A stretch of DNA of 64,000 nucleotides from Oleiphilus messinensis (GTDB lineage: Bacteria > Pseudomonadota > Gammaproteobacteria > Pseudomonadales > Oleiphilaceae): NCBI RefSeq assembly GCF_002162375.1, contig NZ_CP021425.1:2477501-2541500 (forward strand), given 5' to 3'. Below the pieces are notes generated by a model. That model ran no database searches and had not been told where the DNA came from. It saw only the letters and a list, made by a program, of their open reading frames with translations. Positions 4,156 through 45,633 of this stretch are shown here, one piece after another. Position 1 is the first letter of the stretch. Each line of letters opens with the position of its first letter. Position numbers and translations under genes: made by a program.

Positions 4156-7100
4156 TTATTCTGAGGCTGCCTTGGGCGCTGTTATCTCACTTTGATCAGG
4201 CGTGCTCTCGCCAGCAGTCGATTCCGTCGGCTGGGCTTCTGGTGTTTTTTCCTCCTGAGAGGCACTTTTAGTTGTGGATGCTGTTGCATCAGCGGTGCTT
4301 TGTGCTGCTTCAGCAGAGCCTTCTGCCTGTTTCGCTTCTTCTGCCGCTTTTTTTCTTGCTAGCCTTGGATCGTTGTGCGCACGTGATTTTCCGGGTGTAC
4401 CTCTGCGTCGGGGCCGTTTGGGTTTGGCCTCACTTTCAGCGGAATCCTCGGTTGTTGGTGTTTCGATTTTTGGCGCATCAGCAGTTGTATCATTTAACTT
4501 GGTTTCGGTTGTGTTGGAAGCTTCGGTTTCAGGGTGTTGAACTTGTGCATTATCCTGAGTGCTTTCGGCAACAGACTCTTCTGCGACTTGTTTTTTCTTG
4601 TCGTCAGACTTGTTAGAGGCAGTTTGTTCTTTTGTCTCAGTAGATGGCGGAGCGGTATTGCTCGTTTCTGATTCCGCACTTTTTGCCCAAGGATTTGCAT
4701 CGGTTTCTTCGCTTGCCTGGGGCTCCGGAGTCTCGGTAAATGCGGCTTCCAGTTTTTGTTGGGCTGCCGCTTTTTGTTCGGCAATTTTCGCTGCGTTCCA
4801 AGGGTTTATGAGTGTTTCATCTTCATGAATCGAGGGTGTCAACGCACTGGCAGAGGTTTGATCTGCTGTTGGTGCTTTGGTTGCTGAGTCTTCACTTGCG
4901 GTCGACGGTTCTGTGGTCGGTGAGGGCTCTTTATTCGCTGAAGGCTCTCGATTTGCTGAGGGCTCTTTATTTGCTGAGGGCTCCCGATTTGCTGAAGGCT
5001 CCCGATTTGCTGAAGGCTCTCGATTTGCTGAGGGCTCTTTATTCGCTGAGGGCTCTTTATTCGCTGAGGGCTCTCGATTTGCTGAAGGCTCTTTATTCGT
5101 CGAAGGCTCTTTGTCGCTGGCTGATCCTTGATTTGCTGGCGGCTCTTTGCCCGTCGATGACTCTCTACCCGCTGATGGCTCTTTACTTGCTGATGGCTCT
5201 TTGCCAGCTGGAGAACGACTGGGCGAGCGTGATGGTTTGTTTTGTGCCTGCTCGGTAGCTTGAGTGTCTGTCGCGCTTGTGTCTGTCGTGGCGCCGTCTT
5301 TTTCTCTGGAGCTGTTGTGTGATTTGCTGTTGGCGCCCTTGTCCGAGTTGCGTTCACGGTTGGATCTGTTGTTGCGCGTTGAGCGTGGTTTGCGGCCTTT
5401 GTTGTCATCAGAAGCGGTTTTCTGCTCTTGAGTGGTGGGCGCGGTATCTTTAGCAGTTTGTTGTGCCTGTTTATCTTGTTCCGGTATATCGGCGGCACTG
5501 CTTTGTTTTGCGCGCGAGCGTGGTGCTTCGGGCTTGTCCGGTGCTCCTTTTTGGCGGTCACGACGGGGCCGTTTACTATCGTCTGAAAAATCAGAGCTCA
5601 ATTGCTGACTATTGCGGTTTTGTTGAGGTTTATTTGAGTCTTGACGCTTATTTTGTGCGCTGCGGCCCTGTTGGTTATCGGCACCTTGCTTAGGTTTATT
5701 TTCCTGAGTGCGACGTTGCTTGGCTTGAGGAGCTTTGCGTTGTCCACGCTCTTGTTGGGTCGGGGTTGACTTGTCTTTACGTCGATCCGTGTCCTGACGG
5801 CGGCTATGTGAGCGTGCCTGGGACTCACTACTTGGGGTGCTGGTGGTAGGCGGACGAGCAGGTTCATTTGTTTGCGGCTCGGTGGTGCCGTCACTGAAAA
5901 TTGACTTCAATTTTGCTGATATTTTTTTCAGGAAACCTGTGCTTTCGGTTGTCGTAGGGGCTGGAGCCAGTGGTGTCAGCGTTTTAACTGCGGCTTCTTC
6001 CCGAACCCGATCTTTCTGGCGGTCAGAAACGGATGTATCGGTTTCGCCCTCAGAAGGTTTAATTGAATAGCTTACATCTGTATCGGTGCCACTTTCATCT
6101 TCCCGGATACGTACAACTTCGTATTGAGGTGTTTCCAGCAGGGAGGAAGGTATGATAAGGACCGAAACGCCTTGTTTTGTCTCGATTTCGCTGACCAGGG
6201 ATCGTTTTTCATTCAAAAGGAATGTTGCTACGGTAACTGGAACGATTGCTCGAACCTGGCCTGTTTTTTCCTTGGATGCCTCTTCATAGATTAATCGCAT
6301 GATTGAAAGTGCAAGAGATTCGATGCTGCGAATGGTTCCTTGACCAGAGCATCGTGGGCAAATTTCATTTCGGGTTTCTTCGAGTGAAGGGCGAAGTCTC
6401 TGGCGAGACATTTCCAGTAATCCGAAGCGTGATATTTTGCCAACCTGTACCCTTGCTCGGTCTAATTCCAGCGCCTGACGCATGCGATTTTCAACTTCGC
6501 GCTGGTTTTTGGCTGGGGTCATATCGATGAAGTCGATGACAATCAGTCCACCAATATCTCTCAAGCGTAATTGTCGGGCAATTTCTTCTGCCGCTTCAAT
6601 GTTGGTTTGTAGTGCGGTTTCTTCGATGTCTCCGCCCTTGGTTGCTCTGGCAGAGTTAATATCGATGGAAACCAATGCTTCCGTCGGGTCGATAACGATT
6701 GAGCCACCGGAAGGCAGCTTAACTTCTCGTTGAAAAGCGGTCTCGATTTGCGCTTCAATCTGATAACGGCTGAACAGCGGAATTTCATCCTGATACAGTT
6801 TGATTTTATTTTCGTAGGATGGCATCACGGATTGTACGAAGTTGAGCACATCTTCGAATATTTCCGGATTGTCGACCAGGACTTCACCAATGTCCTGGCG
6901 CAAATAGTCTCTGACAGCGCGAATGATAACATTGCTTTCCTGGTAGATCAGGAATGGTGCTGCGCGACTTCCGGATGCGTGGGTGATGGAATCCCAAAAC
7001 TGTTTCAGGTAGTCAAGATCCCATTGCAGTTCTTCCGTGGATCTGCCCACACCTGCAGTTCGTACGATCACGCCCATGTTTTTAGGCGTTTTCAAGCCGG

Positions 7101-7569
7101 ACATTGCCTCTTTTAATTGCGTGCGGTCTTCACCTTCAATTCTTCTGGAAATGCCGCCTGCTCGAGGGTTATTTGGCATCAGTACCAGGTACCGGCCAGC
7201 AAGGCTGATAAAGGTTGTAAGTGCGGCTCCTTTGTTGCCGCGCTCTTCTTTGTCGACCTGAATGATGATTTCCTGGCCTTCGGTTACGACATCTTTGATG
7301 TTGATTTTGCCGTTGATTTGCGAAGGTGGAGTAGTGAAATATTCTTTGGAAATTTCTTTCAGAGGAAGGAAGCCGTGACGTTCCGCGCCATAGTCAACGA
7401 AAGCGGCTTCAAGGCTGGGTTCGATTCGTGTAATTTTGCCTTTGTAAATGTTCGCTTTTTTGGTTTGACTGGTGCCTGATTCGATGTCCAGGTCGTACAG
7501 TTTTTGTCCATCTACTAATGCGACGCGCAGCTCTTCTTCATGAGTTGCGTTGATCAACATTCTTTTCAT
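4156..7569 (-). CDS. rne: Ribonuclease E
   Basis: RNase E, the essential endonuclease that starts mRNA decay and processes rRNA and tRNA precursors at the inner membrane. The start [18 protein letters not shown] is the family N-terminus, so I take the ATG at 7569 (1137 residues) rather than an ATG 30 bp upstream. The S1 domain ([19 protein letters not shown]), the catalytic DNase-I-like region ([18 protein letters not shown]) and the zinc-link CPRCSGQGT are intact in the first half. From about residue 500 the protein is low-complexity and rich in Q, R, K, S, T and P, as expected for the degradosome scaffold, and ends with a short arginine-rich patch ([12 protein letters not shown]...[10 protein letters not shown]). 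A hexapeptide array (EPSAN[K/R]) occupies part of the tail. It is divergent from rluC, as in Pseudomonas. Confidence 0.96.
4925..5104. repeat. 18-bp minisatellite inside rne (10 units)
   Basis: Ten consecutive 18-bp units begin with GGCTCT at 4925, 4943, 4961 and so on to 5087, and differ at a few positions. On the coding strand they encode EPSAN[K/R] hexads (one is EPSTNK). More diverged units (for example [18 protein letters not shown]) continue to about 5215. Because the unit is a multiple of three, copy-number change would keep the rne frame. Confidence 0.95.
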
Positions 7570-30128: not shown

Positions 30129-30205
30129 CGGGGTATAGCGCAGTCTGGTAGCGCGCCTGCTTTGGGAGCAGGATGTCGGGAGTTCGAATCTCTCTACCCC
30201 GACCA
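30129..30205 (+). tRNA. tRNA-Pro (anticodon UGG)
   Basis: A 77-nt cloverleaf: acceptor CGGGGTA pairs with TACCCCG, followed by ACCA. The anticodon loop is TTTGGGA (anticodon TGG) and the T-loop is TTCGAAT. The CCA end is encoded. First of four tRNAs in one likely transcript. Confidence 0.97.
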
Positions 30206-30227
30206 ATCTATTCGAGCAAGGGTGCGA

Positions 30228-30304
<77 letters not shown>

Positions 30305-30378
30305 TATTTAGCGCATTCTGGTTGGTTTCGATGCTTGTTGTAAGTCTTTATAGGCGGTTTTAAGTAAAGTGTTTTTGT

Positions 30379-30455
30379 GGTGGGCGTAGCTCAGTTGGTA
30401 GAGCCCAGGATTGTGACTCCTGTGGTCGAGGGTTCGATCCCCTTCGTCCACCCCA
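30379..30455 (+). tRNA. tRNA-His (anticodon GUG)
   Basis: A 77-nt cloverleaf including the extra 5' G(-1) opposite C73, the hallmark of tRNA-His. Acceptor GTGGGCG pairs with CGTCCAC with one G-U pair; the anticodon loop is TTGTGAC (GTG). CCA is encoded. Confidence 0.97.
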
Positions 30456-30592
30456 ATTTTTCCTCTCGTGTTTGGCATACTCTCTGTTTCAGATCATTTG
30501 TATCGTCAGAGGTTGGGAGCAGTCAAATATGAACCTCAAGCGCACTCGGTAACGGAACGAGTGTTCGAGTTGGGGAGTTCAAAAAGGTATAT

Positions 30593-30677
30593 GCGAAAGT
30601 GGCGGAACTGGTAGACGCGCTGGATTTAGGTTCCAGTGGGGCAACCCGTGAGAGTTCGAGTCTCTCCTTTCGTACCA
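30593..30677 (+). tRNA. tRNA-Leu (anticodon UAG)
   Basis: An 85-nt class II tRNA with a long variable arm (TGGGGCAACCCG). Acceptor GCGAAAG pairs with CTTTCGT (G1-U72), then ACCA. The anticodon loop is TTTAGGT (TAG), reading CUN codons. Confidence 0.96.
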
Positions 30678-39557: not shown

Positions 39558-39611
39558 GTTATATATCCGGTTATTATCTTCGCACGGATTACCGAACCAC
39601 CAGGAAACGCG

Positions 39612-39633
39612 CCCGGCTATGCCGGGTTTTTTT
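39612..39633 (+). terminator. Rho-independent terminator after ppiD
   Basis: CCCGGC (39612-39617) and GCCGGG (39621-39626) with a TAT loop are followed by seven T residues. Confidence 0.92.
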
Positions 39634-40147: not shown

Positions 40148-41023
40148 GTGAGCGTGCCAAATCAATATCAAGTTTGGCATGCTTTCAATAAGATTGGGAA
40201 GGATTGGCTATCCATGATTTTAGTCTTGGCAGGTTCGATAATTGCTTTTTCCATGGTTCATGAGGCCACAGAAGTCACGCCATTTAAACCGGGCGAAGTT
40301 GTCCACGAAGTCACGCATCGCAAAGGTACCGACGAGCTTGCGTACGTACAGGTCAGGTCTAAAGTAGAACCTGCGGTTATGCAGAAATACAGGAATATTG
40401 TTCGACAGGCTTATGATTACAGCTGCGGGTCAGCAGCGTTGACTACAGTGTTGGAGCACTATTTGGGGCGTCGCTTTGAAGAACGCCAGGTTATGGAAGG
40501 GTTGCTCCATTATGGAGAGAGTGAGCGGATCGTTGAGCGACGAGGTTTCTCAATGCTCGATATGAAGCGGTTGGTAACAGCGTTAGGCTACCCCGCAGGG
40601 GGCTTTAGAGCTGAACTTGAGGATTTAATAGCCCTCGATCACCCAGCAATTGTTCCAATTCATTATGCTGGCTTCAAGCACTTTGTTGTTGTGCGGACGG
40701 TTAAGGATGGCCGGGTTTTCATCGCAGACCCTTCAATGGGGAACATTTCCTTTACGCTTGAAGGGTTCAAGCAGAAATGGGATCAAAATGTTCTATTCGT
40801 CGTATTTCCGGGGGACACCAAGCCCGTCGATGGTTTGGAGCTTCGGGAGGAGGATATGCGTTTTATTGATGATCAGACTTTATCCATGTTGGCCTTCCGT
40901 GAGTATCCTCAATTCACTATTCCGTTACAAAATCGTATTCAGAATGAGCTGGAGCGTCAGAAAGACAACGCGGACGGCTCGGTTAATAATACCCGTAAGC
41001 AATTGCATTATCACCGAAAGTAG
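40148..41023 (+). CDS. Membrane-anchored C39 peptidase-like protein (FapD-like)
   Basis: A 291-residue protein with one N-terminal hydrophobic segment (about 21-37) and a papain-like C39 domain at about 75-220, predicted periplasmic. The catalytic triad is visible: Cys93 in AYDYSCGSAALTT, His178 in GFKHFVVV and Asp194 in ADPSMGN. Short C39 domains without an ABC transporter occur in the Fap functional-amyloid operon (FapD), where the enzyme is needed for export through FapF. The next gene encodes a FapF-like barrel, which strengthens the comparison. The C-terminal 60 residues are outside the domain and unassigned. The start is a GTG at 40148 with a weak ribosome-binding site; an internal ATG near 40214 would cut the anchor. 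The substrate is unknown. Confidence 0.8.
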   Translation: MSVPNQYQVWHAFNKIGKDWLSMILVLAGSIIAFSMVHEATEVTPFKPGEVVHEVTHRKGTDELAYVQVRSKVEPAVMQKYRNIVRQAYDYSCGSAALTTVLEHYLGRRFEERQVMEGLLHYGESERIVERRGFSMLDMKRLVTALGYPAGGFRAELEDLIALDHPAIVPIHYAGFKHFVVVRTVKDGRVFIADPSMGNISFTLEGFKQKWDQNVLFVVFPGDTKPVDGLELREEDMRFIDDQTLSMLAFREYPQFTIPLQNRIQNELERQKDNADGSVNNTRKQLHYHRK

Positions 41024-41122
41024 CGATCTTGAAGTACTCAATTTTGGAGCCAATTGGCGGAATATAAATTTTCAGTCGGAAAGTCCTTTAGGATCCGAAT
41101 ATAAGTAAAAAAGGAAATCAGA

Positions 41123-42136
41123 ATGAATCGTTGGGTAGTACCGTGTATCGTCTTTTGTTCTTCAACCCTTGTCTTCACACCGACTTGGGCAGAAGAACCC
41201 ACCAGTGTTGACAAGGCTCGGGAAGCCTTGACCAAACAGGAGGGTGATACGGATTCCGCTCAGCAATTGGAAGAAGTTTTCCAGGCCGCTGAAAAGAACT
41301 ATTCGTTGATTAAGAAAGGGAACATATCATTATCCTTCTCTTCAGACTACAGCTACTTTGGTGATCAGCGATTAGATATCCAAATTGTAAACAGTTCGGT
41401 ACGCAACCTGAATATCGTACCATCCGCGACGCACACGTTCACTAACAGTTTCTCTGTCGATTATGGTCTGCTGAGTAATGTTACTGTGGGGGCCAGAATT
41501 CCGTTAGTCGTGAAATATGATACCCAGAAAGAAGTCGATACCATGAATATGGGGGACGTTTCACTCTCTCTGAAATGGCAGCCTTTGGAATATACACCGG
41601 GTAAAATCTCAAGCACGGTTTTTACTTCGCTGGGAACCAAAACAGGCGTGAGTCCCTATGAAATAGATACTAATAATGATTTATCGACTGGAAGCGGTAA
41701 TTATTCGCTTTCAACCGGTTTAAGTTTGTCCAAAGTACTTGATCCCGTTGTGGTGTATGGATCATCCTCTGTTTCCTACGGCATGCCGATTACCGGGTTG
41801 AATCAAGTTCGTGGTGGTCGTTTGCTTACCAAGGTCAGTCCTGGTTTTAGTGCCTCTTTTTCGGGTGGTTTTTCATACTCTCTCTCTTATGATATTTCAT
41901 TGAGTGCTTCAATTCAGATGTCTTACTCTGATGAAACAACACTGACTTTCTCTGATGGTACCCAGGCAGTATCCCAGGATCAGATTAGTAGTGTGATGAA
42001 TTTTTCTTTGGGAACTCGTGTCAGCGAGAAGACAATTGTGAACACCAATGTGGGCTTTGGTCTAACGGAAGATTCTCCGGATGTTATTCTCGGTTTTTCT
42101 CTCCCTATCAACATTGCGGGTTTGAAAGAGCAATAG
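41123..42136 (+). CDS. Outer-membrane beta-barrel with N-terminal helical segment (FapF-like)
   Basis: The protein has 337 residues. A signal peptide ends near residue 23 (TPTWA-EE); residues 27-64 are a charged, probably coiled-coil segment (QQLEEVFQAAEKNYSL); the remainder alternates polar and hydrophobic residues as in a porin-like barrel (for example GNISLSFSSDYSYFG, VTVGARIPLVVKY). FapF, the outer-membrane exporter of Pseudomonas amyloid, has the same order: signal, helical N-terminal region, then a 12-stranded barrel. It follows the C39 gene by about 100 bp with an AAGGAA site. The last residue is not aromatic. I regard FapF-likeness as probable but unproven; a generic OM transporter is the alternative. 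Confidence 0.68.
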   Translation: MNRWVVPCIVFCSSTLVFTPTWAEEPTSVDKAREALTKQEGDTDSAQQLEEVFQAAEKNYSLIKKGNISLSFSSDYSYFGDQRLDIQIVNSSVRNLNIVPSATHTFTNSFSVDYGLLSNVTVGARIPLVVKYDTQKEVDTMNMGDVSLSLKWQPLEYTPGKISSTVFTSLGTKTGVSPYEIDTNNDLSTGSGNYSLSTGLSLSKVLDPVVVYGSSSVSYGMPITGLNQVRGGRLLTKVSPGFSASFSGGFSYSLSYDISLSASIQMSYSDETTLTFSDGTQAVSQDQISSVMNFSLGTRVSEKTIVNTNVGFGLTEDSPDVILGFSLPINIAGLKEQ

Positions 42137-42178
42137 TGGATGCTGTTGGAGTCGGAGAACTCAAAAAGAGAGTTACTA

Positions 42179-43774
42179 ATGAGAATTATATTTAATAAGC
42201 TTGCTTTTATTGTCCTGGCATTGAGCTATAGCGTGATTGGTCACGGTCAGTTGACCCAGAACCTCGCAATTGATATGCAGGCGTTGTCCCTCGGGAACGC
42301 AGTAACTGCAGATCCAAATGGTTTGATGGCGATACATTATAATCCTGCGGGTCTAACCCATTACAAAGGACGCAATTTCCAGGTTAATTTGCTCAGCGCT
42401 TACATAGATATCGATGCAGATTTCATCGCCCCTCCCGGTTATGAGATTTTTGGTATAGATGGTGTTGAGAATGATCCGGTTGCAAATTCACACAGCCATG
42501 TAAACCGTCTTGCGATTTATGTTCCAGGGTTAGGGCTGCAAAAGCTGCCTCCTGGACCCGCGCTTGCACCTTCTACGGCATTTAGTGTGAATTCGCCTGG
42601 CTCAAAGTTGACGTTTGGTAATGCGTTTTACCTGCCGATGTTTGCCGGATTCTATCGAAAACCAACTGATCCGGGTAGATATCAGCCTTTGGCGGCGGCA
42701 CTTCAGCGTATTACCTATCTTTCCCCGACAGTTGCATATGAAGTCAATGATGAGTGGTCTGTCGGTCTGGGTGTGCACTTTTCTTATTTTGCACTCGCAG
42801 CGGAGCAATATATGCGCGCTCCCAACATGATGCTGGGGATGGCTGAGATTCTGCAGGATGCATTTAACTGTGAGAGTGGTGATGAACCACTTGCTCCGTT
42901 CATTACGCTCTGTGGTGGTAACGTCGGTCCTTTTGATGATATTGGTGTATTGTCATTGGAGTTGGATCAGTCTCTGTCACCTACCTATGCTGCAGGTGTC
43001 TTATGGGAGCCGAATGATTGGTTCCGTTGGGGGGCGAGTTACACCAGTGATGCAGATATGCATCTGAACGGGACTTATGAGTTAAATTACACAGAAGACT
43101 TCTCGGGTTTTTGGCGGCGTTTTAATGGTTCGATTATCGGATCTATCACGTCTGCAATTTTAAGCTTACCATCCGGCGCGCCTCGGGAGGCGGGTAACGT
43201 AACCATGAAACTTACGTATCCGCAGCATTTTCAAACGGGCATCAGTGTGAAGGTTCACCCTTTGTTAACCGTTAATATTGATGTTGGCTGGACTGATTAT
43301 AAAAAGTGGGATGCCTTTAACTTCCAGTTTGATCGAAATCTCGAATTTCTCGGCGCTGCACGAATCCTTTCTCCGCAAAATGCGACTTCTAATACGTTGA
43401 GCCTGCCGCAAGGTATGGTTGATGTTTGGAATTGGGCATTTGGGTTTGAGTTGCATGCATCAAGTCGTCTGGACTTGCGCGCTGGTGTTGAAATTCGTGA
43501 CTCGGTTATACCAAATGATCAGCGCAACCTGATGGCCCCTTTTGGTGGTGCCAACTTGTATAGTGTTGGTATGGGCTACCGCTGGTCCAGGGATGCCGAT
43601 ATCAGCATGTCGCTAAGTTACATTCACTCAGTTGAGAATATCCCTGCAGATACAAGTTGTAATATCAACTGCGACGCGATCGATAATATTGTTTACAACC
43701 CTTATGCTGGCCTGGATGTTAAAACTTCTCTCAGAGCGGTTTTGGCTGGTTTAACCTTCCGTACCCGGTTCTAA
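42179..43774 (+). CDS. OmpP1/FadL-family outer-membrane protein
   Basis: A 531-residue outer-membrane protein with a signal peptide (MRIIFNKLAFIVLALSYSVIGHG) and the FadL-type N-terminus (AIDMQALSLGNAVTADPNGLMAIHYNPAGLT), where mature FadL proteins carry the NPAG turn. Many amphipathic strands follow, and it ends TFRTRF with the terminal phenylalanine expected for BAM-dependent insertion. It contains an unusual cysteine pair region (NCESGDEP...LCGG and SCNINCDA) that could form disulfides. The ATG at 42179 with AAGAGAG is preferred to one at 42140. FadL relatives import long-chain fatty acids or other hydrophobic compounds; the ligand here is unknown. Confidence 0.82.
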   Translation: MRIIFNKLAFIVLALSYSVIGHGQLTQNLAIDMQALSLGNAVTADPNGLMAIHYNPAGLTHYKGRNFQVNLLSAYIDIDADFIAPPGYEIFGIDGVENDPVANSHSHVNRLAIYVPGLGLQKLPPGPALAPSTAFSVNSPGSKLTFGNAFYLPMFAGFYRKPTDPGRYQPLAAALQRITYLSPTVAYEVNDEWSVGLGVHFSYFALAAEQYMRAPNMMLGMAEILQDAFNCESGDEPLAPFITLCGGNVGPFDDIGVLSLELDQSLSPTYAAGVLWEPNDWFRWGASYTSDADMHLNGTYELNYTEDFSGFWRRFNGSIIGSITSAILSLPSGAPREAGNVTMKLTYPQHFQTGISVKVHPLLTVNIDVGWTDYKKWDAFNFQFDRNLEFLGAARILSPQNATSNTLSLPQGMVDVWNWAFGFELHASSRLDLRAGVEIRDSVIPNDQRNLMAPFGGANLYSVGMGYRWSRDADISMSLSYIHSVENIPADTSCNINCDAIDNIVYNPYAGLDVKTSLRAVLAGLTFRTRF

Positions 43775-43836
43775 GTTCGCTTTATCTGGGCTAAAATCGG
43801 GTTTATTAGCATAGGTAGTAGGTACTCACTTCCCAT

Positions 43837-43864
43837 AAGGTATTCCGCGAGGAGTACCTTTTTT
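43837..43864 (+). terminator. Terminator/attenuator before the MalM-like gene
   Basis: AAGGTATTCC (43837-43846) pairs with GGAGTACCTT (43851-43860) with a GCGA tetraloop and a T-run that ends 19 bp before the next ATG. A second upstream segment, AGGTACTC (43820-43827), can compete for the same right arm. Confidence 0.75.
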
Positions 43865-43882
43865 CTCTTCCAGGATAGGCTA

Positions 43883-45016
43883 ATGCGATTTTTAATTTTA
43901 ATCATGTTGTCCGTGTCTTTGCCTGTTAATGCTGCTGAAAAATACCGGACGTGGATTGATAGTGATGGTAATGTTCAAATGCAAAAAATACAGGAAGAGC
44001 GCAATCCATTCTTGCCTGAAGGTGTGACCTTTGAACCCGAAGATGTGGTTCGTAAAAATAACAATCAGGCGGCCACAGGAAAGTCGGATGCGGAGGTGAA
44101 CTCTGGGGAGAGTGCTCGCACTCCTTCTGCAGATCCAGTGAAGAGCGATACAATAGTGAATAAACCGCTCCCCGGTCTGGCTAATCCTGAGAATACTTCT
44201 TCTGGCGACGCCCCTCGGATTCGATCTGATCTGGATATTACGGTTGTTGATGAAAGTGAGTTTGTGGATGGTGACGAGCTTGCGCGACGTGGCTATATTC
44301 GTGATGAAAATGAAGTGCCCACTTATGTTTGGCGTGATGCAGAAGGGCGTTTGCAGAATTCTCCGTATGTTCCCAACCCTGATCAGAAACAATCAAATGG
44401 TAGCCAGGCCTCAGTGAGTGAAGAGTTAGTCACACCTGCTATCCAATACTTTGTCGTTCCTGGTTACGATGCTGTGGTCGCTCAAGGCGCTAGCCATTTT
44501 TCGCCAGACATGCTTAAGGTTGGCGATTTTGTCACTTTCCAAAAGCAGTGTTGTGAGTCTCTGGACAAGGAGTATATTCAATCGCTTTCGTCAGAACGGG
44601 AAATTTTGGTCGAGATTGATGATCGCTCAAATGATTTTAATTTTCCCAGTGGTCAGAGTCGTTATGAACTGGTGAAAATAGACGAAGCTGGATTAAATAC
44701 AAATCCGCTCGTTCGCATGCGTACGTTTGATCAAAAGGGGCTATTCTACCCTACCATAATAATGTTAGGTCGAAGCTTTGAACCACTTAGGATGATTGTT
44801 TACCCTAAGCTGGATTATCACCCCGAAACCTGGAATCGTTACGGTTATATGGAGAGTTTATTCAAAGTTAATTATATGAATGGCGAGAAGTATATCCTGG
44901 TGTTTTCCCGTCGGAATGAACAGATCTATAATGAGGCCGTTCCTGATAAAAAAGGTCGTCAGAAACAATTGGCATTGACGGATCAAGGCGAATTTGAATT
45001 CAAGCTTTTGAAATGA
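43883..45016 (+). CDS. Periplasmic protein with DUF4124-like segments and MalM-like C-terminus
   Basis: A 377-residue exported protein: signal peptide MRFLILIMLSVSLPVNAAEK, then a DUF4124-like motif (YRTWIDSDGNVQ), a low-complexity linker (about 60-115), a second similar motif (VPTYVWRDAEGRLQNSPYVP) and a C-terminal domain from about 185 with features of the MalM family (NFPSGQSRYELVKI, PTIIMLGRSFEPLRMI, KYILVFSRR). MalM itself is a periplasmic protein of unclear function in the maltose operon. There is no maltose gene nearby. It is the last gene of the envelope cluster, behind an attenuator, and its 3' end overlaps the opposite-strand DnaJ-related gene by 34 bp. Confidence 0.7.
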   Translation: MRFLILIMLSVSLPVNAAEKYRTWIDSDGNVQMQKIQEERNPFLPEGVTFEPEDVVRKNNNQAATGKSDAEVNSGESARTPSADPVKSDTIVNKPLPGLANPENTSSGDAPRIRSDLDITVVDESEFVDGDELARRGYIRDENEVPTYVWRDAEGRLQNSPYVPNPDQKQSNGSQASVSEELVTPAIQYFVVPGYDAVVAQGASHFSPDMLKVGDFVTFQKQCCESLDKEYIQSLSSEREILVEIDDRSNDFNFPSGQSRYELVKIDEAGLNTNPLVRMRTFDQKGLFYPTIIMLGRSFEPLRMIVYPKLDYHPETWNRYGYMESLFKVNYMNGEKYILVFSRRNEQIYNEAVPDKKGRQKQLALTDQGEFEFKLLK

Positions 45017-45633
45017 ACTCTGAGTACTTGCATCGCTTCATTCAATTTCTGAGACTGTTTTAGAGAGCCACCCCGATCAGGGTGGTGTTCCATTGCCATT
45101 TGTTTATATGTTCTCTTAATGACTTTATAGCCTTTCTCGTTGTACTGAATATCCTTGGGGTTCAAGCCAAGGGTCTCCAGTGCTGCAACAATGTGGTCAC
45201 TACGAATGACCCTGCGCCAAAATGACTGGAGCATTTCATCCAGATCTTCCTCTGTTGTCCTGTATAAATTATCGGTATCCAGATAGAACTGTCGCAGCGG
45301 TATGTTTTCCAATTCTTGCGAGAGTTCATTGTTGTGCTTTTTGCAATCGTGAGGTCTTAAATGGATTTGCAAGGGCGAAATGATGAGAGTCGTTGATGCC
45401 ATCGAATCAGAAAGCTCCCTTTGCCAGCAATAAAGCTTGTGGAACAGGGCGAAATGAATCGGGAAGAGTGCGCCTGGGGACTTAAAGTTGAGAAGTTCCG
45501 GGAAAGGGTACTTCTCCTTATCGATATCTTTCAGGATTTCGAACTCAGAAATACCGCAGGGGGCTGACTGTATTTTTTTTTGGATGCTGCTCCATAAAAC
45601 TTGGGGCATTATCTCGTCAATAAGCTTAAACAT
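44983..45633 (-). CDS. DnaJ-related protein with C-terminal J-domain
   Basis: A 216-residue protein with an N-terminal DNAJ-related region (PCGISEFEILKDIDKEKYPFP, LFPIHFALFHKLY, LRQFYLDTDNL) and a C-terminal J-domain with the intact HPD motif at 184-186 (AMEHHPDRGG). The family is common in gammaproteobacteria; its Hsp70 partner and client are unknown. It is convergent with the MalM-like gene and the 3' ends overlap by 34 bp. Confidence 0.85.
   Translation of the reverse strand: MFKLIDEIMPQVLWSSIQKKIQSAPCGISEFEILKDIDKEKYPFPELLNFKSPGALFPIHFALFHKLYCWQRELSDSMASTTLIISPLQIHLRPHDCKKHNNELSQELENIPLRQFYLDTDNLYRTTEEDLDEMLQSFWRRVIRSDHIVAALETLGLNPKDIQYNEKGYKVIKRTYKQMAMEHHPDRGGSLKQSQKLNEAMQVLRVHFKSLNSNSP

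Follow-up and report, generated by a model that had tools for sequence, protein, structure and literature searches.

A filBCDE gene block of Oleiphilus messinensis as the probable machinery for post-Sec export of dispersed, leader-bearing proteins

Four consecutive genes of Oleiphilus messinensis lie in the 64,000-nucleotide stretch of chromosomal DNA that was analysed here (the window). Judged by their sequence matches, they form the filBCDE part of an operon that is annotated as a "putative pilus" and has been little studied, and are not a Fap remnant. We consider it likely that the block is the machinery of post-Sec export for a family of substrates encoded elsewhere in the genome, FilB cutting the leader of these proteins and FilC exporting them.

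Results

The run of four genes reported in the first-pass annotation was recovered, with all open reading frames (ORFs) on the + strand. They comprise filB (40148-41023), encoding a C39 cysteine peptidase anchored by a hydrophobic N-terminus, filC (41123-42136), encoding a FapF-like outer-membrane barrel, filD (42140-43774), encoding a FadL-type outer-membrane protein, and filE (43883-45016), encoding a protein, probably periplasmic, whose C-terminal domain is MalM-like. The first three are assigned by NCBIfam matches, with scores below the curated cut-offs (FilB 280/475, FilC 345/630 and FilD 518/970 bits); the fourth, for which the NCBIfam scan of the block matched no FilE model, occupies the FilE place. 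No filF lipoprotein gene adjoins filBCDE in O. messinensis, and the 593-base gap 5' of filB, read by eye, holds no leader-bearing ORF of at least 20 aa. A terminator-like hairpin with a T-run is found between ppiD and filB (39611-39627, + strand); the region has five such hairpins against a mean of 5.2 in shuffled sequences, i.e. no excess.

FilB matches Peptidase_C39 in Pfam (E 1.5e-19) and both FilB (E 1.9e-83) and FapD (E 6.8e-36) in NCBIfam. Its Gln87, Cys93, His178 and Asp194 align with Gln15, Cys21, His99 and an Asp of PCAT1, in agreement with the triad Cys93/His178/Asp194 noted earlier. These residues are invariant in every FilB row that covers them (Gln and Cys 54/54, His and Asp 56/56) and are kept in 22/22 FapD-like rows as well. 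The predicted signature of an active C39 peptidase, Cys/His/Asp plus the oxyanion Gln, is present. Since residue 23 of the annotated ORF is the Met where most relatives begin, filB probably starts at 40214. The N-terminal anchor was judged by eye, and the catalytic domain is probably periplasmic.

FilC matches no Pfam family above cut-off. In NCBIfam it matches FilC (E 6.6e-103) and, in its barrel part only, FapF (E 2.6e-12); among PDB sequences it matches FapF 5o67 (E 2.3e-10). The AlphaFold model, made from an alignment of 11 sequences (mean pLDDT 64.5), is a barrel with most blocks at pLDDT 68-87 and N-terminal helices below 50; the N-terminus is conserved and probably helical. In a Foldseek search against the PDB, the 18 best matches of the model are all FapF chains (5e-13), followed by the COG4313 channel 4rl8 (9e-6). 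The expected structural match to FapF, a 12-stranded trimeric barrel with plug helix and coiled coil, was obtained for the barrel; confidence is low in the N-terminal helices, where a plug would be sought.

Concerning the remaining two genes, the earlier assignment of a FadL-type outer-membrane protein is upheld by the Toluene_X/FadL (E 2.7e-64) and NCBIfam FilD (E 2.3e-155) profiles; PorV_fam also matches FilD weakly, close to the N-terminus (residues 41-86, E 9.4e-6). FilE had been called MalM-like. Its own MalM match (E 3e-5) falls just under the Pfam cut-off, DUF4124 gives 0.049 and FilE_C is not matched. Among five proteins at the filE position in relatives, MalM is found in two (2.5e-26 and 9.5e-13), FilE_C in two and only DUF4124 in one. 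A model of FilE (mean pLDDT 56.7) resembles a collagen-binding domain and other beta-rich folds, with no functional hint.

A FadL-type FilD and a COG4313 channel as the next fold match of FilC could suggest that the two proteins take up or move hydrophobic small molecules or lipids, with a regulatory C39 protein. However, FapF chains fit FilC far better than does this channel, and the block closely co-occurs with a signal-peptide-bearing protein family, as detailed below; we regard such a role as very improbable and keep to protein export.

Gene order was compared in 39 regions, one from each other genome with a strong FilC match (E up to 1e-45, a threshold chosen once the gap between 7e-46 and 1e-25 had become apparent). 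The four genes had been expected to co-occur in relatives, and the order B-C-D-E is present in 33/39 regions, as well as in the 10 loci from which the profiles were built, in one of which a contig end cuts filB. Matches to a FilE profile of the window type adjoin B-C-D in 33/39. Going by these regions, the C39/barrel pair is almost always accompanied by the FadL-type and FilE genes. The proposal that this pair is homologous to FapD/FapF and combined with other proteins is borne out by the profile matches, the FapF fold and the conserved neighbours.

Away from filBCDE, the genome of O. messinensis encodes 21 proteins of 98 to 789 aa with widely different mature parts, in which a Sec-type signal, judged by eye and with a simple script, precedes a 16-residue segment with Gly-Gln at its end (in one case Gly-Lys). 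Read by eye, the position just before this segment holds Ala in 19 of the 21 and Ser or Gly in the other two, which fits a signal-peptidase site. Pfam DUF6160 has this segment as its core; the genome holds 20 DUF6160 matches (16 over cut-off), and the FilA profile matches seven of these proteins, below its cut-off. As the DUF6160 model covers both the signal peptide and the leader, weak matches to it are essentially the leader itself. To the remark that no amyloid subunit gene is visible in the window it should be added that likely cargo exists elsewhere, in the form of these dispersed proteins.

The leader has a fixed spacing. In 59 non-redundant leaders, position -12 is L/M/I in 97%, -7 is L/M in 99%, -4 is V/T/A/I/M in 92%, -2 is Gly in 58, and -1 is Gln in 93% and Gly in one; the best-fitting Gly was chosen per ORF, which favours the pattern, and one row (L125 at 11442) is misplaced, its real leader having Ala at -2. 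This describes a putative propeptide of 15-16 residues with L at -12, an acidic residue at -10, L/M at -7, V/T/A at -4, G at -2 and Q at -1. The leader script found 18/21 leader proteins of O. messinensis, with one false match among 201 ORFs; 5/29 matches in the 39 fil regions and 1/14 in a set of seven regions look spurious. When compared beyond residue +10 (n=18; three of the 21 are absent, and one of 19 automatic matches, a TPP-enzyme-like ORF, was dropped as false), the proteins form two groups with seven members each and four singles, and BLAST shows no similarity from one of these sets to another. The leader is thus their shared element. No relatives of the substrates were found in viral contigs.

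In relatives, leader-protein genes can lie near the block: a DUF6160 gene is located in the same region upstream of filB in 19/39 (21/39 counting two further leader proteins), and in three loci that were read completely it immediately precedes filB. In other families, a DUF6160-type gene lies within 2 kb upstream of filB.

Across 293 genomes of the order, strong FilC and DUF6160 occur together in 38, strong FilC only in two, DUF6160 only in one and neither in 252. The exceptions are G058 (89% complete) and G145 (65% complete), with strong FilC, and G057, with a single DUF6160 match (E 5.6e-5). In a second family of 61 genomes, FilB and DUF6160 are both present in 30, FilB only in one (G336), DUF6160 only in three (G322, G323 and G326, of 200-300 contigs) and neither in 27; one genus of this family has four genomes with both and two with neither. 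DUF6160 is absent from 12/12 genomes with only weak, probably Fap-type FilC matches, and 14 control genomes gave no match to FilC or DUF6160.

A relict or variant fap operon that lost its amyloid genes would account for the matches to FapD and FapF. These, however, score 123.6/330 and 46.3/700 bits, far below the Fap cut-offs, and the FilB and FilC profiles score far higher. Moreover, in addition to the fil block a weaker, probably Fap-type pair exists in some relatives, and in 20 regions with weaker pairs or other distant C39 matches the leader script selected 2/839 ORFs, both of which look spurious by eye. A fap relict, already disfavoured, is hardly tenable. A complete fap operon elsewhere in the genome had been named as a point to check; a profile search of the whole O. 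messinensis genome at E up to 0.001 returned no second FilB or FilC match, and hence no second FapD/FapF-like pair. In other genomes the same profiles do pick up weaker, probably Fap-type genes.

Discussion

We propose that each substrate is synthesised with a Sec signal and, behind it, a propeptide of double-glycine type, and that Sec and signal peptidase bring it to the periplasm. There FilB, anchored in the inner membrane with the catalytic domain on the periplasmic side, would bind the leader and cut after Gly-Gln. The mature protein, starting e.g. Ala-Gly-Ile or Ala-Phe-Ile, would then pass through the FapF-like barrel FilC, and FilD and FilE may receive or anchor it at the outer membrane.

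The predicted cleavage site is not canonical. A C39 leader is given as L(-12)xxxE(-8)L(-7)xxxxG(-2)G(-1), with specificity from -4, in PMC6959990. The leaders described here have L at -12, L at -7, a hydrophobic residue at -4 and G at -2, and mostly have Gln instead of G (or A) at -1. As the peptidase cleft is described there as narrow at -1, the cut could lie elsewhere (e.g. behind the conserved Gly at +2), or the leader may serve for binding alone. A conserved domain family moreover begins with this leader, whose conservation by itself is no proof of processing. FilB might then be a leader-binding chaperone or docking receptor, or cut another target such as a part of the machine, with export through FilC but no Gly-Gln processing. 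Some C39-like domains only bind, and the target of FapD is called undetermined in PMC5557850 (2017) and PMC6173800 (2018). On the other hand, the catalytic residues are invariant as set out above, in FilB as in FapD-like proteins, and in Fap a Cys-to-Ala mutant is reported to abolish FapC secretion (PMC5557850). We consider it unlikely that FilB does not process the substrates at Gly-Gln, and favour leader cleavage. It also counts against the proposal that FilB has a conserved Lys in the place of Ile59, a groove residue of PCAT1. Lys140 and Met/Leu136 of FilB are largely common to FapD-like proteins, in whose regions no such leader is seen, and therefore cannot explain a FilB-specific one; at position 214, FilB differs from FapD-like proteins.

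The database names ("putative pilus system", "type III pili") imply that the operon builds a pilus or fibre with FilA-like proteins as subunits, which would be compatible with export through FilC. A profile of seven substrates, however, had no match in the PDB, and FilF was not matched in the O. messinensis genome in a weak test with one distant query from another genome. The size range and the differing mature parts of the leader proteins fit a general route better than one fibre, and we regard a pilus as possible but doubtful. Whether export by filBCDE extends to a general, unnamed secretion route of several families of the order is, in our estimate, evenly balanced; a Sec signal and a transferable 15-16-residue double-glycine-like leader would then address many otherwise unrelated proteins, encoded genome-wide, to a single pair of periplasmic C39 peptidase and FapF-type barrel. 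If filBCDE exports the leader proteins as proposed, a "putative pilus" annotation and DUF6160, a domain of unknown function, would become machine and cargo, the cargo would be predictable in any genome with filBCDE, and the leader would serve as a tag that addresses proteins to the cell surface in these bacteria.

Among known systems, type IX secretion is comparable in concept only: FilD is a member of the wider FadL superfamily, and its best PorV_fam stretch covers no more than about 46 residues. C39 peptidase-containing ABC transporters (PCAT1, LahT) share the catalytic residues and leader positions -12, -7, -4 and -2; in contrast, the O. messinensis block is without an ABC transporter, and its candidate leaders lie behind a Sec-type signal and have Gln at -1 and an acidic -10 instead of Glu at -8. 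With the fil operon filABCDEF (NCBIfam FilA-FilD, Pfam FilE_C), the block shares the families and the B-C-D-E order, and FilA-type proteins with the same leader are present in the genome. It differs in that filA has multiplied and lies scattered away from the block, in the lack of a FilF match to one distant query and in the scores under the curated cut-offs. The Fap system of Pseudomonas likewise combines a periplasmic C39 peptidase with a FapF-type barrel. Unlike Fap, the block has two additional steady genes, FadL-type and filE; FilB has an N-terminal anchor whereas FapD has a Sec signal peptide; and the candidate substrates carry a double-glycine-like leader, whereas Fap proteins are said in PMC5557850 to lack canonical C39 sites. 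A docking paper of 2023 speaks of FapC modification by FapD (PMC10638192). Neighbouring fapD and fapF homologues are reported in five further phyla (PMC6173800), where the same leader could be sought. A homologous peptidase together with proteins bearing a recognisable C39-type leader makes the question of the FapD target directly testable.

Results

The filBCDE block and its gene order in relatives

In the source genome of the window (6.38 Mb, single contig) a block of four plus-strand genes stands behind genes named lon, hupB and ppiD by eye. The first gene, filB (40148-41023), matches the NCBIfam model FilB with an E-value of 1.9e-83 and FapD with 6.8e-36; the second, filC (41123-42136), matches FilC (6.6e-103) and FapF (2.6e-12); the third, filD (42140-43774), matches FilD (2.3e-155); and the fourth, filE (43883-45016), shows a weak MalM match. 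The first-pass annotation had read the first two genes as a FapD/FapF-like pair. Both Fap profiles do match, but much more weakly than FilB and FilC, and judged from these profiles the block therefore is filBCDE of an operon named a putative pilus system by NCBI. None of the three matched NCBIfam models (FilB, FilC, FilD) reached its curated cut-off with the window proteins; in one other family, 11 genomes out of 61 reach the FilB cut-off. A DnaJ-related gene on the minus strand (44983-45633) shares 34 bases with the 3' end of filE. Four tRNA genes in a row (Pro, Arg, His, Leu) lie at 30129-30677 of the window.

Public relatives of filC were found at ten loci, in Hahella, Hahellaceae and Oleiphilaceae records and in unclassified proteobacterial bins. 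All show B-C-D-E, with filB cut in one, and together with the window they served to build profiles for B, C, D and E. One region around a strong FilC gene (profile match with E up to 1e-45; weaker matches are probably Fap-type) was searched in each of 39 other genomes having such a gene. The order B-C-D-E is kept in 33 of the 39 regions, so that the four genes grouped at first pass indeed co-occur in relatives. Of the six exceptions, two showed no match for E (L107, L125), three, all from one family, have B and C alone (L139-L141), and the last is truncated where its contig ends (L142). D and E are far apart in two of the 33 (L135, L136); in L135 the space between them carries a gene (4523-7384) for a 953-aa protein whose N-terminus resembles a signal peptide.

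FilB, FilC and FilE

Most relatives of FilB begin at the residue equivalent to Met23 here, and filB therefore probably starts at 40214, not at the GTG at 40148. Read from Met23, the sequence opens with one hydrophobic anchor segment, after which comes the C39 domain. Gln87, Cys93, His178 and Asp194 align with Gln15, Cys21, His99 and an Asp of PCAT1 and are invariant in the FilB rows reaching them (Gln and Cys 54/54, His and Asp 56/56), which confirms the previously proposed triad Cys93/His178/Asp194. The same positions are invariant in 22 of 22 FapD-like rows.

The AlphaFold model of FilC, built on 11 sequences, has a modest mean pLDDT of 64.5, and its N-terminal helices, the would-be plug and coiled coil, fall below 50. 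FapF chains fill the first 18 places among its PDB matches (TM-scores 0.44-0.49 by query), the next being a COG4313 channel. FapF is thus the best structural match of the barrel, and the model supports a FapF-type fold, this support covering the fold and not a FapF-like plug. By eye, FilE and its relatives contain a similar short segment of the type Y-x-x-W-x-D-x-x-G twice, in FilE of the window near residues 21-29 and 148-155; the DUF4124-like part of FilE may therefore be duplicated.

Candidate cargo proteins and their leader

A whole-genome search gave no FilA profile match within the window and eight matching places elsewhere, none above the cut-off; these matches are seven proteins with the Pfam domain DUF6160. 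The DUF6160 profile itself has 20 matches in the genome (16 above the cut-off), and an additional leader protein without Pfam match is encoded beside DUF6160 genes (7006-8304 of L148, a region of this genome, as are L146 and L147). These 21 proteins are spread over ten places, often in tandem. By eye, all have a signal peptide and then 16 residues, the leader, to Gly-Gln (Gly-Lys in one); the residue before the leader is Ala in 19, else Ser or Gly, which fits a signal-peptidase site. Eight have an Ile/Val-Tyr-Gly-His C-terminus and a mature part devoid of Cys, and six end in Gly-Leu-Phe. A comparison of 18 of the 21 beyond residue +10 gave two similarity groups with seven members each, plus four singles.

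In L148 (3818-14156) six leader proteins lie close together, five of them ending in Gly-Leu-Phe, with a transposase-like ORF (by eye) between two. L146 (3307-7376) holds three leader genes in tandem, encoding 362, 196 and 789 aa; other genomes repeat the pairing of DUF6160 ORFs of about 800 aa beside one of about 220 aa. In L147 a protein encoded between two leader proteins (4241-5263) has a variant leader carrying Ala at -2 (by eye).

Among 59 non-redundant leaders from many genomes, in a register whose choice by the script favours the pattern, the residues, counted from the presumed cut, are L/M/I at -12 (97%), D/E at -10 (98%), L/M at -7 (99%), V/T/A/I/M at -4 (92%), Gly at -2 (58/59) and Gln at -1 (93%). 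True Gly-Gly occurs in one relative's protein (L065).

The script for signal peptide plus leader was run on the ORFs of several region sets. Across the 39 fil regions it matched 29 of 1739 ORFs, five of these matches being spurious; seven regions from a FilB-rich family gave 14 of 226 (one spurious), and the regions picked for the DUF6160 genes of the source genome 19 of 201 (one spurious). As a control, twenty regions that hold either probably Fap-type pairs or some other distant C39 match gave 2 of 839; the window (1/132) and the ten loci (1/321) gave one match each, both spurious by eye.

Co-occurrence of the fil block and DUF6160

Within the order, 293 genomes were compared: 40 have strong FilC, 39 have DUF6160 and 38 have both (Fisher p 4e-44, which ignores relatedness); strong FilB is found in 38, all with strong FilC. 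DUF6160 occurs in none of the 12 genomes having only weak FilC matches. Neither FilC nor DUF6160 is present in G019 and G146, two genomes from the same family as the window; G019 has a weak FilB-like match. A second family, with repeated absence, comprises 61 genomes: FilB and DUF6160 are both present in 30 and both absent in 27, FilB is alone in one and DUF6160 in three, all three many-contig assemblies. One genus within this family has four genomes with both and two with neither. Fourteen control genomes gave no FilC and no DUF6160 match, and FilB matches in two.

A DUF6160 gene accompanies the block in 19 of the 39 regions, or 21 counting two more leader proteins. In the FilB-rich family, three loci show the order DUF6160 (one to three genes), filB, filC, filD, filE and, in filF position, a long lipoprotein-like gene. 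In G058, where DUF6160 was undetected, a protein beside filB has the same kind of leader without DUF6160 match; in this stretch (L141, 8157-12039) the block shows only filB and filC, and the divergent neighbour gene encodes this repetitive leader protein.

Discussion

The simplest account of these sequence data is that Sec would carry the leader proteins across and signal peptidase make the first cut, that FilB would recognise and remove the 16-residue leader in the periplasm, and that the processed protein would pass through FilC. The anchor and intact active site of FilB fit this route, as do the length of the leader and its place directly after the signal. The exact cut is uncertain, given the unusual Gln at -1. 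FilD and FilE accompany the pair almost constantly, and our guess is that they could act as outer-membrane receiver or anchor.

Titles and abstract starts of the papers found on DUF6160 and the fil gene names, on FapD with C39 since 2019, and on double-glycine leaders with C39 and Sec contained no link between DUF6160 proteins and a C39 peptidase. For the Fap system, one source describes Fap proteins as lacking canonical C39 sites and the FapD target as unclear (PMC5557850), and a 2023 docking paper mentions a FapC modification by FapD (PMC10638192). Leaders of C39 transporters, according to PMC6959990, follow L(-12)xxxE(-8)L(-7)xxxxG(-2)G(-1); residues -12 and -7 join the peptidase in a hydrophobic knot, while specificity comes from -4.
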